From Burkholderia sp. IMCC1007 (GTDB lineage Bacteria > Pseudomonadota > Gammaproteobacteria > Burkholderiales > Burkholderiaceae), in assembly GCF_027257875.1 (NCBI RefSeq), contig NZ_JAPVQY010000007.1, positions 124,001-188,000 of the forward strand: a stretch of 64,000 nucleotides of DNA, given 5' to 3'. The translations under genes were made by a program, and so were the position numbers. The first letter of the stretch is position 1, and each line of letters opens with the position of its first letter. This document shows positions 761-10,466 of the stretch, piece by piece. The notes under the pieces were generated by a model. It worked only from the letters and a program-made list of their open reading frames with translations, was not told the origin of the DNA and searched no databases.

Positions 761-1345
761 TCAGTCGGACGCGAGCAGCAGGTCGATGTAATCGTGGGCG
801 AGCTTCAACGCGGCTCGGGTGTCGATCGGGCCGCCGGCGAGCGCGCCGCGCAGCCACAGGCCGTCGATCAGCGCGGCGAGGCCGCTGGCGGCTTCGCGCG
901 CTTTCGTGCGCGGCAACGCCTTCGCGAATTCGGCGCACAGATTCGAATGCAGGCGCCGCGTGTTCACGTGCTGCAGGCGCTTGAGCATCGGGTCGTGCAT
1001 GCTCTGCGACCAGAACGCGAGCCATGTTTTCATCACGGGCGCGCTGACCTGCGTGTCGTCGAAGTTCGCGGCGACGACCGCGCGCAGCCGGGACCGCGGA
1101 TCCTTGCGTGCGGCGACGCGGCGGCGCGTGGTGGCCGACCACAGATCGCGCAGCACGTGCCGCATCGTGGCTTCGAGCAGGCCGTCCTTGTCGCCGAAGT
1201 AATGGCTGACGATGCCCGTCGAGATGTTCGCGCGCTGCGCGACCGATGCGAGCGTCGTGCCGGGCAGGCCGGCTTCGTCGATCGAGCGCAGCGTCGCGTC
1301 GATCAGCTGTGCGCGACGAATCTCCCGCATTCCGACTTTCGGCAT
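761..1345 (-). CDS. betI: TetR-family choline-responsive repressor BetI
   Basis: A 194-residue TetR-type repressor of the choline-to-betaine pathway. Choline relieves repression in characterised relatives. The N-terminal helix-turn-helix spans about residues 10-58 ([13 protein letters not shown], then [19 protein letters not shown]), and the rest is the ligand-binding and dimer domain (LWLRGALAG near residue 160). The length matches the BetI family. An AGGGAG ribosome site lies 7 bases before the ATG. A symmetric operator sits about 50 bases upstream, and betB follows in the same direction. The identification is strong from sequence and context together. Confidence 0.95.
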
Positions 1346-1397
1346 CGCGACTCCCTTCGCCCGGACGGGCCGTTCCTGGAAGTCGAGAGCTTAGCGG

Positions 1398-1427
1398 TTT
1401 TTTATTGACCGTTCAATCAATAAAAAA
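1398..1427. promoter_or_regulatory. BetI-type operator, upstream of betI
   Basis: A perfect 11-base inverted repeat has arms TTTTTTATTGA (1398-1408) and TCAATAAAAAA (1417-1427), with eight bases between them. A second small dyad, TTGA-CCGT-TCAA (1405-1416), is nested inside. It lies 53 bases upstream of the betI start, in an AT-rich island. Known BetI operators are AT-rich dyads containing TTGA and TCAA halves, so autoregulation of betIBA is the natural reading. No promoter hexamers were assigned. Confidence 0.75.
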
Positions 1428-2065
1428 ATAGGGGTCCGACGGCGAATCGTCGCGCTACGGATGCGGACGAGGCTGCCTGACACAGTTGTGCAGGTGCAGG
1501 AAAACCGTTTGAAAGATGGTTAAATAAATTGAAATTTGTTTAAAGCGATTTTCGGAAAAGCGGTGTAATCGTCGCTAAAGTTTATGGATTCGATTTATTA
1601 CGCGTCGAAAGAATGTCGAGGTATGTGAGATTCAGTGGGATACGAAAATTCACGCCTCCGATGGCAGTCCGGCTAATTTCTGAAAAATCGTTTCAATCGA
1701 GCGATTTAAATTATGTATGTTGTTGAATTCAAACGATGTATTTGTCTGGTCGGCCTGTCGGAAAGGATTTGCGCAAACGATTGCGATCGCTTTTCGGTTG
1801 ATCTCGCATACCATAAAAAACACCAAAAAGATTTGAATCGCTCGTATTTCCCCCTGAAGTAGAGGGGTTCGTTGGGACGACTTGAGTAAGCAATATTGCC
1901 CGTATTAGTATGGCGCCGCACTACAAGGAATGAATCGGCGATGCGCGCATTGACCGCGCTGCGTCGGCCATGCGCGCGCTCGACGATCGCACACGGCCGG
2001 CGCCACCCATTGCGCACCTGCAGCATGCCGCGACGCCGAGACGCCGCATCCACCGGAGAACGACG
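1428..2065. other. Long AT-rich intergenic region between betI and the rhamnolipid operon
   Basis: About 640 bases carry no credible gene. Bases 1500-1900 are clearly more AT-rich than the surroundings, as expected for a complex promoter. The rhamnolipid promoter must lie here, but I cannot assign -10/-35 elements. A loose CCTG-N11-CAGG dyad at 1476-1494 resembles a lux box but has the wrong spacing. Long open frames crossing this stretch on the minus strand are shadows of rhlA. Confidence 0.6.
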
Positions 2066-2965
2066 ATGCCGACCGAAAAACACGTGGTCCCGCTGCCGAA
2101 TGGTCTGAAGGTCTACGTCGAACGGAATGTATTCGATCCGTCCTTCGACACGGCGATGCTCGTCAACGGCGCGCTCGCGACCACCGCGTCGTTCGGGCAG
2201 ACGGTCCAGTATCTCGGCGAGCGCATGAACACGATCTGCTTCGATCTGCCGTATGCGGGGCAGTCGCGCCAGCACAATCCCGGCTGCTTCATCCTGACGA
2301 AGGACGACGAAGCCGCGATCCTCCAGCATCTGGTCGAGCGCTTCGCGCCCGCGTTCCTCGTGTCGGTGTCGTGGGGCGGCGTCGCATCGCTGTTCGCGCT
2401 CGCGCGCGGCTGCCCGAGCGTGCGGCGCGCAGCGATCTGCTCGTTCTCGCCGTTCCTGAACGACGCGATGGTCGATTACGTGACGCGTGCACGCGACCAC
2501 ATCGCGGCCGGCGAGAACCTGAAGGCCGCGCAGCTGCTGAACGATACGGTCGGTCGCTACCTGCCGCGCATCATGAAGCTGTACAACTACCGGTATCTGA
2601 CGCGCCTGCCGCGCGACGAGCAGGACCAGGTCGCGTTCCACGTCGACCAGATCCTGTCGCTGCAGCCCGAGCGCTACTTCAGCGAATTCTCGAACATCGG
2701 CTGCGAGCTGCTGTTCGTGAACGGCGAACGCGACGAGTACACGACGCCGGCCGACGTCCGCCAGCTTGCCGCGCACGTGCCGCGTGCGCGCTTCACGACC
2801 ATTCCCGACGCCGGCCACTTCCTCGACATCGAAGGCCGCACGCAGCGCGAGACCACGCGTGCGGCGCTGCTCGACTTCTTCTGCGATGCGTCGCCAGCCG
2901 CCGCAGGCATCGCGCTCGGCGCCGCGCGCGCATGCGTGTCCGCACCGATGCCGGCGATGTCGTGA
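2066..2965 (+). CDS. rhlA: RhlA, 3-(3-hydroxyalkanoyloxy)alkanoate synthase
   Basis: RhlA couples two beta-hydroxyacyl units to form the HAA lipid of rhamnolipids. The predicted protein has 299 residues. It has an alpha/beta-hydrolase fold with the nucleophile in VSVSWGG (Ser102), the acid in NGERDEYT (Asp223) and the base in AGHFLD (His251). These positions coincide with the known Pseudomonas RhlA triad numbers. LFDLPYAGQSRQHNP-like sequence near residue 60 (here FDLPYAGQSRQHNP) is also diagnostic. The ATG at 2066 has GGAGA 6 bases upstream, and the in-frame ATG at 1970 lacks a site. It is the first gene of a seven-gene operon. Confidence 0.95.
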   Translation: MPTEKHVVPLPNGLKVYVERNVFDPSFDTAMLVNGALATTASFGQTVQYLGERMNTICFDLPYAGQSRQHNPGCFILTKDDEAAILQHLVERFAPAFLVSVSWGGVASLFALARGCPSVRRAAICSFSPFLNDAMVDYVTRARDHIAAGENLKAAQLLNDTVGRYLPRIMKLYNYRYLTRLPRDEQDQVAFHVDQILSLQPERYFSEFSNIGCELLFVNGERDEYTTPADVRQLAAHVPRARFTTIPDAGHFLDIEGRTQRETTRAALLDFFCDASPAAAGIALGAARACVSAPMPAMS

Positions 2966-3032
2966 CGCAGCACGTCGCGTATCGGGCACTCCGGGCGCAT
3001 CCGAATTCTCATCCATACGAGGCAGGCCAGCC

Positions 3033-3602
3033 GTGAATATCGTTCAGAGCATCGCCATCGTCGTTCCGTGGGCCGCGTGGCTCGCGTACTGGATCGCCAC
3101 GTCGCAGGGCGTCAAGGCGACCGTGCGCAAGGAGGCGTCGCGCTCGCGCACGCTGCAGTCGATTCCGCTGATCGTCGGCGGCGCGCTGATCATCCTGCCC
3201 GATCCGTCGTGGCAGGCGCTCGTGCCCGACTGGCAGCGCTTCGGGCTGCAGGCGCAGTGCGGGCTCGCGGTGCTGGTCGCGGGGCTGCTGTTCTCGGTGT
3301 GGGCGCGGCTGCACCTCGGCACCAACTGGAGCGTGTCGGTCACGCTGAAGGAAGACCACGAACTCGTGCGCACGGGGCCGTATGCGCTCGTGCGCCACCC
3401 GATCTACACCGGCTGCCTGATCGCGCTGGTCGGCGCCGCGCTGATCGGCGGCGAATGGCGCGGCGCGATCGGCGTGCTGCTCGTGTTCGCGTCGCTCGCG
3501 TACAAGGTGCGCGTCGAGGAGAGCTGGCTGACCGGGTATTTCGGGCCGGCGTATGCGCAGTACCGCCGCGAGGTCGCGGCGCTGATCCCCGGTTTCTACT
3601 GA
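3033..3602 (+). CDS. Isoprenylcysteine carboxyl methyltransferase-like membrane protein in the rhl operon
   Basis: This 189-residue integral membrane protein belongs to the ICMT/phospholipid methyltransferase superfamily, which transfers methyl from S-adenosylmethionine to membrane-embedded acceptors, often carboxylates. The signature RTGPYALVRHPIYTG lies near residue 113, followed by a hydrophobic helix, an EESWL segment and the typical C-terminal FGPAYAQYRREV. Four or five membrane helices are apparent. The start is a GTG at 3033 with GAGG about 10 bases upstream. It lies 67 bases after rhlA and 17 before rhlB, so it is part of the operon. Bacteria have no prenylated CaaX proteins, so the substrate is different. 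The free carboxylate of HAA or rhamnolipid is a plausible acceptor, but this is inference. Confidence 0.85.
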   Translation: MNIVQSIAIVVPWAAWLAYWIATSQGVKATVRKEASRSRTLQSIPLIVGGALIILPDPSWQALVPDWQRFGLQAQCGLAVLVAGLLFSVWARLHLGTNWSVSVTLKEDHELVRTGPYALVRHPIYTGCLIALVGAALIGGEWRGAIGVLLVFASLAYKVRVEESWLTGYFGPAYAQYRREVAALIPGFY

Positions 3603-3619
3603 CACCCGCGAGGCGCGCG

Positions 3620-4903
3620 ATGGCGAAGATGATCGTGACCGCGATCGGCTCGGCGGGCGACGTGCATCCGTTGCTCGGCGTCGCGCGCACGCTCGCCGCG
3701 CGCGGTCACGACGTCGTGTTCTGCACGCATGCGCCGTTCGAGGCGGCCGTGCGCCGCTGCGGGTTCGCGTTCGTGCCGGTCGGCACCGCGGCGGAATACG
3801 ACGCGGCGATGGCGAACCCCGCGCTGTGGGATCCGCGCACGTCGTTCCGCACGCTGTGGCAGGTGATCGCGCCGACGCTGCGCCCGCATTACGACGCGCT
3901 GCGCGCGCTGACCGATGCCGACACGGTGCTGGTCGGCACGCTGTGGGCGTTCTCCGCGCGCTTCATGCAGGAACTGCACGGCACGCCGTACGTGTCGGTG
4001 CAGGTGTCGCCGTCGACGCTGCTGTCCGCGCATGCGCCGCCGACTCACCCGCGCCTGACGATTCCCGCGCGCTGGCCGTTGCCGGTGAAATCGGCGCTGA
4101 TGACGCTGATCGAGCGGCAGGTGCTCGACCGCGTGTGCGGCCCGGCGCTCGACGCGGTGCGCCGCGAACTCGGGCTCGCGCCCGCGCGGCGCGTGCTCGG
4201 CCGCTGGCTGCATTCGACCGACGGCGTGCTGTGCTTGTTTCCCCGGTGGTTCGCGCCGCCGCAGCCCGACTGGCCGTCGAACCATCTGCAAAGCGGTTTT
4301 CCGTTGTTCAACGATATTGCGACCTCCGATGATGATGTGGCACTCGATGCGTTTCTCGCGGCCGGCGAAGCCCCGGTCGTGTTTACGGCCGGGTCGACGC
4401 TCGTCGATCACGCGGCCTATGCGCGCGCGGTGGCGGACGCGCTGCGCGCGACCGGCGCGCGCGGGATCCTGCTGACGCCGCACGATGCGGTGCAGGACGG
4501 CCACCGGCTGCTCGTGCGCCGCTTCGTGCCGATGCGCACGCTGCTGCCGCGTTGCCGCGCGCTCGTGCATCACGGCGGGATCGGCACCGCGGCGCTCGCG
4601 TGCGAAGCCGGCATCGTGCAGGTCGTCACGCCGTTCGCGCACGATCAGTTCGACAACGCGCAACGCGTCGTCGCGAACGGCTGCGGCGTGCGCATCGACG
4701 GCCCGCTCGACGGCGCACGGCTCGGTGCGGCGCTCGCGCGCGTGCTCGACGAACCCGCGTTCGCGGTGCATGCCGAGCGTACGCGCGCGCTGCTCGCGGC
4801 CGCGCCGGACGGCTGCGACGCGGCCGCCGCTTTCATCGAACGCTTCGTGCCGAAGCGCGGGCGGGTGGCCACGCGGGCCGATGTCGCGGTGGCCGGCGCA
4901 TGA
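3620..4903 (+). CDS. rhlB: RhlB, rhamnosyltransferase 1 (mono-rhamnolipid formation)
   Basis: RhlB transfers rhamnose from dTDP-L-rhamnose to HAA, giving mono-rhamnolipid at the inner membrane. The 427-residue length matches Pseudomonas RhlB. It is a GT1/UGT-like GT-B protein. The N-terminal motif GSAGDVHPLLGVARTLAARG binds the acceptor side. The C-terminal nucleotide-sugar motif contains HHGGIGTAALACEAG and then PFAHDQFDNAQRV (about residues 313-350). The ATG is 17 bases after the methyltransferase stop, and the stop overlaps the exporter start by ATGA, showing translational coupling. Identity is secure given rhlA and rhlC in the same operon. Confidence 0.93.
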   Translation: MAKMIVTAIGSAGDVHPLLGVARTLAARGHDVVFCTHAPFEAAVRRCGFAFVPVGTAAEYDAAMANPALWDPRTSFRTLWQVIAPTLRPHYDALRALTDADTVLVGTLWAFSARFMQELHGTPYVSVQVSPSTLLSAHAPPTHPRLTIPARWPLPVKSALMTLIERQVLDRVCGPALDAVRRELGLAPARRVLGRWLHSTDGVLCLFPRWFAPPQPDWPSNHLQSGFPLFNDIATSDDDVALDAFLAAGEAPVVFTAGSTLVDHAAYARAVADALRATGARGILLTPHDAVQDGHRLLVRRFVPMRTLLPRCRALVHHGGIGTAALACEAGIVQVVTPFAHDQFDNAQRVVANGCGVRIDGPLDGARLGAALARVLDEPAFAVHAERTRALLAAAPDGCDAAAAFIERFVPKRGRVATRADVAVAGA

Positions 4904-6495
4904 GCGCCGCGTCGCCGCTTCACGACGGGCCCGTCACGCCGTCCGCGTTCGACGCGCCGGCGCCGGCGCCCGCCGCGCAGCCGGTGCGCGGCATCCGGCT
5001 CGCGCTGCTGACGTTCGCGCTGTCGCTCGCGACCTTCATCGAGGTGCTCGACTCGACCGTGACCAACGTCGCGGTGCCGGCGATCTCCGGCAGTCTCGGC
5101 GTATCGAACAGCCAGGGCACGTGGGTGATCAGCTCGTATTCGGTCGCGGCCGCGATTGCGGTGCCGCTCACCGGCTGGCTCGCGCGCCGCGTCGGCGAAC
5201 TGCGGCTGTTCGTCGGCGCGGTGCTGCTGTTTACGCTGACGTCGTTGCTGTGCGGGCTCGCGCGCGACCTGCACGTGCTCGTGATCTGCCGCGCGCTGCA
5301 GGGGCTGTGTTCGGGGCCGATGGTGCCGCTGTCGCAGACGATCCTGCTGCGCACATTTCCGCCGGACAAGCGCACCGTCGCGCTCGCGCTGTGGGCGATG
5401 ACGGTGCTGCTCGCACCGATCTTCGGGCCGGTGGTCGGCGGCTGGATCGTCGACAACTTCTCGTGGCCGTGGATCTTCCTGATCAATTTGCCGATCGGGC
5501 TGTTCTCGTTCGCGGTGTGCACCGCGATGCTGCGCCCCGACGCGCAGCGCGGCGCGGCCGGCCCGATCGACGTGCCGGGCATCGTGCTGCTCGTGATCGG
5601 CGTCGGCTCGCTGCAGGCGATGCTCGATCTCGGCCACGACCGCGGCTGGTTCGATTCGCCGCTGATCGTCACGCTCGCGGTCGTCGCGGCGCTCGCGATC
5701 GTGTCGCTGCTGATCTGGGAAGCGGGCGAAGCGCATCCGGTGGTCGACCTGAGCCTGTTTCGCGACCGCACGTTCTCGTTCTGCGTGCTGATCATCTCGC
5801 TCGGGATGATGAGCTTCTCGGTGGTCGGCGTCGTTTTCCCGCTGTGGATGCAGGCGGTGATGGGCTACAACGCGTTTCATGCGGGGCTCGCGACCGCATC
5901 GCTCGGCGTGCTCGCGCTCGTTTTCTCGATCCTCGTCGGGCTGCATGCGCACCGCTTCGACGCGCGCGTGCTCGCGACGTTCGGCTTCCTGGTATTCGCG
6001 GCCGTGCTCGCCTGGGATGCGCATTTCACGCTGAAGATGACGTTCGCGCAGATCGCCGCGCCGGGGTTGATCCAGGGGATCGGGCTGCCGTGCTTCTTCA
6101 TTCCGCTGACCGCGGCGACGCTGTCGCGCATCCCGGACGACCGGCTCGCCGCCGCGTCGAGCCTGTCGAATTTCCTGCGCACGCTGTCGGCCGCGTTCGG
6201 CACCGCGATGAGCGTGACGCTGTGGGACAACCGCGCGACCTATCACTACGACGTCGTGTCGCAATCGGTCACGCACGCATCGGCGAATACGCAGCGTTTC
6301 GTGCACACGCTGAACGCGATGGGCGTGGACGGCGTGCGCGAGCTGACGACGCTGCATCAGGTCGTGATGCAGCAGGCCTACATGATGGCGACGGGCGACA
6401 TGTTCTGGATGGCGAGCATGACCTGTCTCGTGCTCGCCGCGATGATGTGGCTCACGCGGCCCAGACGCGGCGCGGCCGCTTCGTTCGGACATTGA
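4900..6495 (+). CDS. DHA2-family (EmrB-like) MFS exporter of the rhamnolipid operon
   Basis: A 531-residue inner-membrane drug/proton antiporter of the 14-helix DHA2 type. Visible family motifs are EVLDSTVTNVAVPAISGSL in helix 1 (motif D1), GWLARRVGELRLF (motif A) and APIFGPVVGGWIVDNFSW (motif C, helix 5). A periplasmic stretch before the last helix (about residues 445-500) is typical of EmrB. Its start overlaps the rhlB stop by four bases. With the EmrA-like adaptor and NodT-like outer-membrane protein encoded downstream, it forms a complete three-part efflux system. Export of rhamnolipid is inferred from the operon position. Confidence 0.9.
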   Translation: MSAASPLHDGPVTPSAFDAPAPAPAAQPVRGIRLALLTFALSLATFIEVLDSTVTNVAVPAISGSLGVSNSQGTWVISSYSVAAAIAVPLTGWLARRVGELRLFVGAVLLFTLTSLLCGLARDLHVLVICRALQGLCSGPMVPLSQTILLRTFPPDKRTVALALWAMTVLLAPIFGPVVGGWIVDNFSWPWIFLINLPIGLFSFAVCTAMLRPDAQRGAAGPIDVPGIVLLVIGVGSLQAMLDLGHDRGWFDSPLIVTLAVVAALAIVSLLIWEAGEAHPVVDLSLFRDRTFSFCVLIISLGMMSFSVVGVVFPLWMQAVMGYNAFHAGLATASLGVLALVFSILVGLHAHRFDARVLATFGFLVFAAVLAWDAHFTLKMTFAQIAAPGLIQGIGLPCFFIPLTAATLSRIPDDRLAAASSLSNFLRTLSAAFGTAMSVTLWDNRATYHYDVVSQSVTHASANTQRFVHTLNAMGVDGVRELTTLHQVVMQQAYMMATGDMFWMASMTCLVLAAMMWLTRPRRGAAASFGH

Positions 6496-6505
6496 GGAAA
6501 CCCGC

Positions 6506-7444
6506 ATGACGACACTCGGCGCACTCGTGATCCTGTATCACCCGACCGACGCACAACTCGCGGCGCTCGGCGCATGGCGGCATGCGTGCGACACGCTGCT
6601 CGTCGTCGACAACACGCCGACGCCCGATGCGCGGGCCCGTGAACTGTGCGCGCGCAAAGGCATCGCGCTGCTGCATCACGGCAATCGCGGCGGTATCGCC
6701 GGCGCGTACAACGTGGGGCTCGCCGCGCTGTTTCGCGAGAACGTCGACGCGGTCGCGCTGTTCGACCAGGATTCGTCGGTGCCGGCCGCGTATTTCCCGA
6801 CGATGGGTGACATCTGCGCGGGGCTTGCCGGGCGCGCGTTCCTCGCCGGCCCGCGCATCTTCGACGAGAACGCGCGCAGCTTCCTGCCCGAACTCGCGAC
6901 GAACGGCATCGGCTTGCGCCGGCTGCGCATCGAGCCGGGCATGCCGCTGCAGCGCTGCGCGTTCCTGATCTCGTCCGGCTGCGTGGTGTCGCGTGCCGCG
7001 TTCGACACACTCGGCCGCTTCGACGAGACGCTCTTCATCGATCACGTCGACACCGAGTACAGCTTCCGCGCGCTCGCGCACAACGTGCCGCTCTATGTGG
7101 TGCCGTCGCTGGTGTTGTCGCATCGAATCGGCGCGAAACAGCGCCATGCGTTCGGCCCTTTCGAAATGACGTCGATGAATCACGCGTGGCAACGGCGCTA
7201 CTACAGCGCGCGCAATGCGGTGCAGCTCGCGATGCAGTACGGGTTGCGCTTTCCGGTGGCGATCGTGCCGAACCTGCTGACCGTGTGGCAGATCGTGCAG
7301 ATCGCGCTCGTCGAGCACGACAAGCGCGACAAGCTCGCCGGCATCCTGTTGGGCATCGCGGACGGCTTGTTCGGCCGGCTCGGCCCGCTCGAGCGCACGC
7401 GGCCGCGGCTGGCCGCGCGTGCGCAGCGCATCCAGCAGGGGTGA
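6506..7444 (+). CDS. rhlC: RhlC, rhamnosyltransferase 2 (di-rhamnolipid formation)
   Basis: RhlC adds the second rhamnose, turning mono- into di-rhamnolipid. The 312-residue protein is a GT2/GT-A glycosyltransferase. The N-terminal strand is LGALVILYHPTDAQL, the nucleotide/metal motif is ALFDQDSSVPAAYF (about residues 88-101), and a conserved ETLFIDHVDTEYSFRA segment follows near residue 175. An AGGA site precedes the ATG by about 7 bases, and the exporter stop is only 10 bases upstream. Related rhamnosyltransferases act on O-antigen, but context with rhlA and rhlB makes RhlC the best call. Confidence 0.92.
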   Translation: MTTLGALVILYHPTDAQLAALGAWRHACDTLLVVDNTPTPDARARELCARKGIALLHHGNRGGIAGAYNVGLAALFRENVDAVALFDQDSSVPAAYFPTMGDICAGLAGRAFLAGPRIFDENARSFLPELATNGIGLRRLRIEPGMPLQRCAFLISSGCVVSRAAFDTLGRFDETLFIDHVDTEYSFRALAHNVPLYVVPSLVLSHRIGAKQRHAFGPFEMTSMNHAWQRRYYSARNAVQLAMQYGLRFPVAIVPNLLTVWQIVQIALVEHDKRDKLAGILLGIADGLFGRLGPLERTRPRLAARAQRIQQG

Positions 7445-7452
7445 CGCGCGCG

Positions 7453-9275
<1,823 letters not shown>

Positions 9276-9276
<1 letters not shown>

Positions 9277-10466
9277 TGCACCACGACAACCTTCATACCG
9301 CCGCACCGCCGGCCGCTCTGAACGACCCGGCAGTCGACGCGCGCCGCGCGACCCGTCGCAAGCGCTTCACGCTGTTCTTCGCGGCGGTGCTGCTGGCCGC
9401 GCTCGTCTGGATCGCGTTCTGGCTGTTGCGCGACCGCTATTACGAAGACACCGACGACGCGTACGTTGCCGGCAGCATCGTGCAGGTCGCCGCGCAGACG
9501 CCCGGCACCGTGACCGACGTGCTAGTCGGCGATACGCAGGCCGTGCGCGCCGGGCAGCCGCTCGTGCGGCTCGACGATACGGAAGCCTCCGTCGCGTTCG
9601 CGCAGGCGAAGGCGCAGCTCGTGCAGGCCGTGCGGCAGGTCGCGAACGCGAAGATCTCGAACACGATGTACGTCGAGGCCGTGAACGCGCGCCAGGCCGA
9701 CCTGTCGCTCGCGCAGCGCGCGCTCGCCGCGCGCTCGGGCGCATCGGTCGAGATCGTCGCGCCGGAGGAGCTGGCGCGCGCCCGCGCGGCGGTCGCCGGC
9801 GCTCAGGCGAATCTCGCGGCCGCTCGGGCGCAGCTCGAAGCCGCGCGCGCGCTCGGCAGCAAGCTGCCCGTCGACGAAAGCCCGGCCGTCGTGCAGGCGG
9901 CCGCGCAATTCAAGCTCGCGTACCGGAACCTGAAGCGCACGACGATCGTCGCGCCGGTCGACGGCACGATCGGCCAGCGTTCGGTGCAGGTCGGCCAGCA
10001 GGTCGGCCCTGGCGTGCCGCTGATGTCCGTCGTGCAGTTGAATCAGTTGTGGGTCGAGGCGAACTTCAAGGAAGGGCAGATCCGGCACATGCGCGTCGGC
10101 CAGCCGGTCGACGTGGTGTCCGACCTGTACGGGTCCCGCGTCGTCTATCGCGGCCGCGTACAGGGCTTCTCGGCCGGTACCGGCAGTGCCTTTTCGATGC
10201 TGCCGTCGCAGAACGCGGCCGGCAACTGGATCAAGGTCGTGCAGCGCGTGCCGGTCGTGATCGCGCTCGATCCGCGCGACCTGGCCGCGCATCCGTTGCG
10301 CGTCGGGCTGTCGATGCGCGCAACGGTCGACACGCGCAACCGCGACGGGCACGCGCTCGACAGCGAGCCGCCGACGCCGGCCGTCGGCACGCGCGTGCAT
10401 GACGGCGTCGCGCGCGATGCGGACGCGGCGGCCGCTGCGATCGTACGCGAGAATCAGGGCGGGTAA
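9276..10466 (+). CDS. EmrA/HlyD-family membrane fusion protein of the rhamnolipid operon
   Basis: A 396-residue periplasmic adaptor anchored by one N-terminal helix (about residues 31-50, FFAAVLLAALVWIAFWLL). The hallmark DTDDAYVAGSIVQVAAQTPG follows at about residue 58, then the lipoyl half-motifs, a long Ala-rich coiled coil (about 100-200), the second lipoyl half (TTIVAPVDGTIGQRSVQVGQ) and a beta-barrel region ending near residue 350. The start codon overlaps the NodT stop (TGATG), so it is translationally coupled. It would bridge the DHA2 pump and the NodT channel. It is the last gene of the operon. Confidence 0.9.

Follow-up and report, generated by a model that had tools for sequence, protein, structure and literature searches.

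An rhlM orthologue in the rhamnolipid operon of Burkholderia sp. IMCC1007, probably encoding a rhamnolipid methyltransferase

Introduction

The closest described counterpart of the gene reported here is rhlM of Paraburkholderia kirstenboschensis F3 (locus tag RW095_02150), which belongs to the ICMT family and follows rhlA in the downstream direction (Liu et al., 2024; PMC11069360). According to the sections of that paper drawn on here, deletion of F3 rhlM abolished rhamnolipid methyl esters and complementation restored them, while D3-methionine labelled the esters and not the free acid, which makes methionine the methyl source. The F3 rhlM mutant continued to make rhamnosylated free acids, an rhlB mutant accumulated HAA with no methylated HAA detected, and di-rhamnolipid was named as the likely main acceptor. 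The same sections give H122 and E162 as the SAM contacts of RhlM, report rhlM from Burkholderia, Paraburkholderia and Caballeronia, and describe one Burkholderia subclade that lacks the gene, with a single exception. They also divide the ICMT family into many bacterial clusters.

Here we describe the rhamnolipid operon in a stretch of 64,000 nucleotides from Burkholderia sp. IMCC1007, hereafter the window. Its ICMT-family gene is most likely the orthologue of F3 rhlM, as judged from the operon, the family, the residue numbering and the survey in Liu et al. (2024), and we call it rhlM. By orthology, the encoded enzyme is predicted, with a probability of about 0.93, to methylate finished rhamnolipid in this strain at its free carboxylate, with SAM as the methyl donor. 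The gene and its function were published in 2024, and little is added here to that account.

The rhl operon and the RhlM protein

Genes of the window's rhl operon are listed in Table 1. The rhlA stop at 2965 is followed after 67 bases by rhlM, and 17 bases separate rhlM from the rhlB start at 3620, exactly the gaps given in the original prediction. The start of the MFS permease gene (4900) overlaps the end of rhlB (4903). For rhlA there was no RhlA-specific match in Pfam or NCBIfam, and the name is based on the operon and on the pathway of Liu et al. (PMC11069360). The best NCBIfam match of the adaptor was NF011715 EmrA (383.2 bits, under its cut-off of 563). Divergent from rhlA, at a distance of 720 bases, lies a gene for a BetI-type repressor (761-1345, minus strand; TIGR03384, over its cut-off), which we would guess belongs with choline genes and not with the rhl operon.

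Table 1. Features of the rhl operon in the window (positions are those of the window).
Gene	Position	Strand	Product	Evidence and remarks
rhlA	2066..2965	+	HAA synthase (alpha/beta hydrolase fold), 299 aa	Pfam Abhydrolase_1, 3.5e-12; orthologue directly 5' of rhlM in 63/63 named loci
rhlM	3033..3602	+	ICMT-family integral-membrane carboxyl methyltransferase, 189 aa	GTG start; R121-H122-P123, E162
rhlB	3620..4903	+	First rhamnosyltransferase (GT28/EryCIII-like), 427 aa	Pfam EryCIII-like_C, 1.9e-21; synteny
	4900..6495	+	DHA2/EmrB-type MFS efflux permease, 531 aa	NCBIfam TIGR00711, 470.7 bits, cut-off 230.2
rhlC-type	6506..7444	+	Second rhamnosyltransferase, 312 aa	NCBIfam TIGR01556, 214.7 bits, cut-off 200.55
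	7453..9276	+	NodT-type outer-membrane efflux factor, 607 aa	NCBIfam TIGR01845, 301.5 bits, cut-off 210.05
	9276..10466	+	EmrA-like periplasmic adaptor, 396 aa	TIGR01730 RND_mfp, 99.7, cut-off 94.9; Pfam HlyD_3, 1.1e-15

Translation of the rhlM frame gave 189 codons with no internal stop, and GC contents of 0.67, 0.48 and 0.93 at the three codon positions, a pattern indicating a real gene in GC-rich DNA. The frame stays open upstream, into rhlA, so that the start codon is not fixed by any stop. Among the 63 named loci described below, the codon that corresponds to the rhlM start in the window is GTG in 47 and ATG in 15; the one locus with neither is that of Paraburkholderia phosphatilytica (L136), whose match begins at residue 2. 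A smaller set of nine relatives has ATG in three and GTG in six.

The window's RhlM exceeds the cut-offs of both Pfam ICMT (PF04140; 52.9 bits, cut-off 24) and Pfam PEMT (PF04191; 51.4 bits, cut-off 25), with about equal scores. It reaches 77.3 bits against the NCBIfam equivalog for protein-S-isoprenylcysteine O-methyltransferase (NF040696), far below the cut-off of 160, and should therefore not be called a protein ICMT. The structures matched by sequence are an ICMT-family methyltransferase of Methanosarcina acetivorans (4a2n; residues 69-186 of RhlM, E 3.9e-11) and the ICMT of Tribolium castaneum (5vg9; residues 74-186, E 7.7e-8). The eukaryotic ICMT differs from RhlM in its substrate, a prenylated protein.

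An R-H-P motif occupies residues 121-123; its histidine, H122, and the glutamate E162 agree in number with the SAM contacts given by Liu et al. (PMC11069360). R121, H122, P123 and E162 are invariant in all 58 gap-free RhlM sequences (that of the window plus those of 57 named loci, the six shorter of the 63 being dropped) and in all 21 rows of an alignment that includes those six. Comparison of the window's rhlM with its 57 relatives gave a median dN/dS of 0.22 (maximum 0.34), which indicates that the gene is under purifying selection. The original prediction of an ICMT-like gene with an intact RHP-type motif is thus upheld by the PF04140 score, the motif and the uninterrupted reading frame. 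F3 RhlM, from Paraburkholderia and not Burkholderia, likewise belongs to the ICMT family, is encoded 3' of rhlA in an rhl cluster and shares the residue numbers H122 and E162 (PMC11069360, in the sections cited). We regard the window's RhlM as a typical orthologue of an enzyme already known.

Distribution of rhlM

Scanning 84,980 species genomes for two conserved peptide patterns, derived from aligned rhl-operon members, yielded 63 distinct named loci; patterns of this origin favour orthologues. These loci carry the labels Burkholderia, Paraburkholderia and Caballeronia, together with one Ferrovum MAG, and P. kirstenboschensis is not among them. The order rhlA-rhlM-rhlB is kept in all 63, an arrangement that is therefore not due to chance. 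The complete seven-gene order is present in 59, and the other four comprise three short loci at contig ends and the P. phosphatilytica locus. In that locus, rhlA-rhlM-rhlB-rhlC is present; within 12.6 kb, NodT and EmrA proteins were unmatched and the only MFS match was weak (26%) and on the opposite strand. How the ester is exported is a question for which this locus provides a natural test case.

Three further loci were of note. The RhlM of Burkholderia lata isolate R-18110 (L101) is identical to that of the window at 186 of 188 residues, with the same operon order. A title on a nonionic rhamnolipid from B. lata stands in the reference list of PMC11069360. The contig binned as Ferrovum (L131) holds all seven genes of an rhl operon, 43-65% identical to those of the window, through either transfer outside the Burkholderiaceae or a binning error. 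In G187 (L075/L077, with L116 at the same place), rhlA is seemingly disrupted into two overlapping pieces, one with an internal stop, while rhlM downstream is intact; this reflects either natural decay or a sequencing error.

The genus survey covered 65 genomes, with limits of E <= 1e-30 for RhlM and E <= 1e-40 for RhlA. RhlM matches were found in 51, of which the one in G211 shares 37% identity and sits in different surroundings; the remaining 50 genomes have RhlM at 75% identity or more. In each of these 50, RhlA and RhlM share a strand and a contig, their matches lying no more than about 120 bases apart by visual comparison of the coordinates. RhlA was found in 57 genomes, and none of the eight genomes without RhlA has RhlM. 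The co-occurrence that the original prediction proposed to look for is thus seen, with rhlM in 50 of 57 rhlA-bearing genomes and in 0 of 8 others. The seven genomes with rhlA alone (G083, G208, G209, G211, G218, G225 and G231) imply that rhamnolipid synthesis itself does not require rhlM. In their rhl operons, and in that of G052 from outside the genus, rhlA and rhlB are adjacent and in the same order as in the window, with 97-261 bases from the end of the rhlA match to rhlB and no RhlM match at E 1e-3 (8/8). One such operon was examined per genome, three of the seven genomes having two rhlA copies.

On an RhlA tree of 72 rows, the rhlM label needs three changes, and none of 500 shuffles gave a number as low. 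The rhlM-less rows are interspersed among rhlM-bearing ones, and the starred branches force at least two label changes. The tree was built by a quick method from rows mostly picked for carrying rhlM, with many forks open, long branches for L131, L136 and L157, and a root placed for drawing only. It suggests that rhlM has been gained or lost more than once, and loss is the simpler guess.

A family-wide search of 200 genomes gave a match in 102, and the loci of the best 30 matches were examined. Among these 30, RhlA and RhlB accompany all 22 matches with at least 60% identity, and the eight at 51% or less have neither RhlA nor RhlB within a 1.5 kb flank. Six stretches of viral contigs fit a pattern, and none of them encodes an RhlM relative. 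At the plasmid matches H8 and H15 (L142 and L143), the RhlA, RhlB, RhlC and pump proteins had no match at E 1e-4, and Pfam recovered no rhl gene among the 8 of 25 ORFs scanned.

Several distant relatives lie in other gene neighbourhoods. In G211, a 37% identical ICMT-family gene (L148:5811-6380) follows genes for a luciferase-like monooxygenase and an NRPS-like protein (AMP-binding, PP-binding, thioesterase), where another lipid or peptide acid is possibly methyl-capped. In G143, a 30% identical gene (L149:6054-6614) lies between those for a zinc-type alcohol dehydrogenase and a fatty-acid hydroxylase, with a PKS upstream; a fatty-acid hydroxylase neighbour is mentioned for Rhodanobacter in the cited sections of PMC11069360. 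ICMT genes 51% and 49% identical to that of the window occur in G072 (L144:5701-6273) and G048 (L145:5707-6279), where the other six operon proteins were unmatched in the stretches examined. That of G072 lies between mdoG (periplasmic glucan) and ltrA.

Methyl acceptor and alternative explanations

What is observed in the window and its relatives is the gene, its operon, its family, the conserved SAM-contact residues and the nesting of rhlM within rhlA-bearing genomes; that the enzyme has the same activity in this strain as in F3 we infer from these. In the proposed pathway, RhlA would produce the HAA lipid, to which RhlB would add the first rhamnose and RhlC the second, giving the di-rhamnolipid acid. 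RhlM, predicted to be a small inner-membrane enzyme, would then transfer the methyl group of S-adenosylmethionine to the carboxylate of the finished rhamnolipid, and the methyl-capped product would be a neutral ester. The downstream EmrAB/NodT-type pump probably exports this ester, a cargo suggested by the operon.

The finished rhamnolipid is placed as the acceptor because, in the sections cited, no methylated HAA was detected in the F3 rhlB mutant (PMC11069360). The reverse sequence, with RhlM methylating HAA prior to rhamnosylation and RhlB then acting on the methyl ester, has the gene order rhlA-rhlM-rhlB as its one argument; the build-up of unmethylated HAA in that mutant speaks against it, as does the continued formation of rhamnosylated free acids by the F3 rhlM mutant (PMC11069360), and we consider it highly improbable. 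Where the original prediction named the carboxyl of HAA or of rhamnolipid as the target, the rhamnolipid part agrees with the F3 knockout, complementation and labelling, and the HAA part is made unlikely by the rhlB mutant. It is harder still to credit that RhlM is a general ICMT-like enzyme for another lipidated or membrane substrate that stands in the operon by accident. The matches to both Pfam ICMT and PEMT would allow such a role, as would a family of many bacterial clusters (PMC11069360, in the sections cited) whose substrates are mostly not assigned, but the close relatives sit in an rhl operon in 63 of 63 named loci, three other ICMT matches occur elsewhere in the window's genome, the gene is conserved by selection, and the F3 orthologue has a mutant phenotype in rhamnolipid methylation (PMC11069360).

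Finally, rhlM may be intact and idle in this strain, the operon being silent or free-acid rhamnolipids predominating. A 2025 paper, in the part drawn on here, states that B. cenocepacia has rhlABC homologues yet no published rhamnolipid production, although the window comes from a strain named only as Burkholderia sp.; in addition, no sigma-70-like promoter was found in a scan of positions 1300-3700, a result that says little in this bacterial group. The median dN/dS against the 57 relatives implies long-term use, and we regard an idle gene as very unlikely. Methylation of the finished rhamnolipid is accordingly the reading that we prefer.

Implications for Burkholderia rhamnolipids

The original prediction had further proposed that the product is a neutral ester with altered surface activity and that operon content sets rhamnolipid chemistry; both proposals agree with the published function of rhlM, as given in the cited sections of PMC11069360. 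Those sections contain no effect on export, which the prediction had also suggested. A broader proposal has two parts, which we put forward together and tentatively, with the odds somewhat against the pair. One is that small bacterial ICMTs may cap the acid groups of several lipid natural products, an idea drawn from the distant relatives beside the NRPS-like gene and beside the PKS with the fatty-acid hydroxylase. The other is that, since most rhlA-bearing genomes of the genus have rhlM, Burkholderia cepacia-type species may make their rhamnolipids mainly as neutral methyl esters, which acid-based assays and free-acid mass lists would miss. Neutral esters missed in this way could be one explanation for the unreported rhamnolipids of B. 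cenocepacia. Rhamnolipid screens of these species should seek +14 Da neutral esters besides free acids. The findings fit the published view that the presence of one small gene sets the charge of the rhamnolipid (PMC11069360, in the sections cited).
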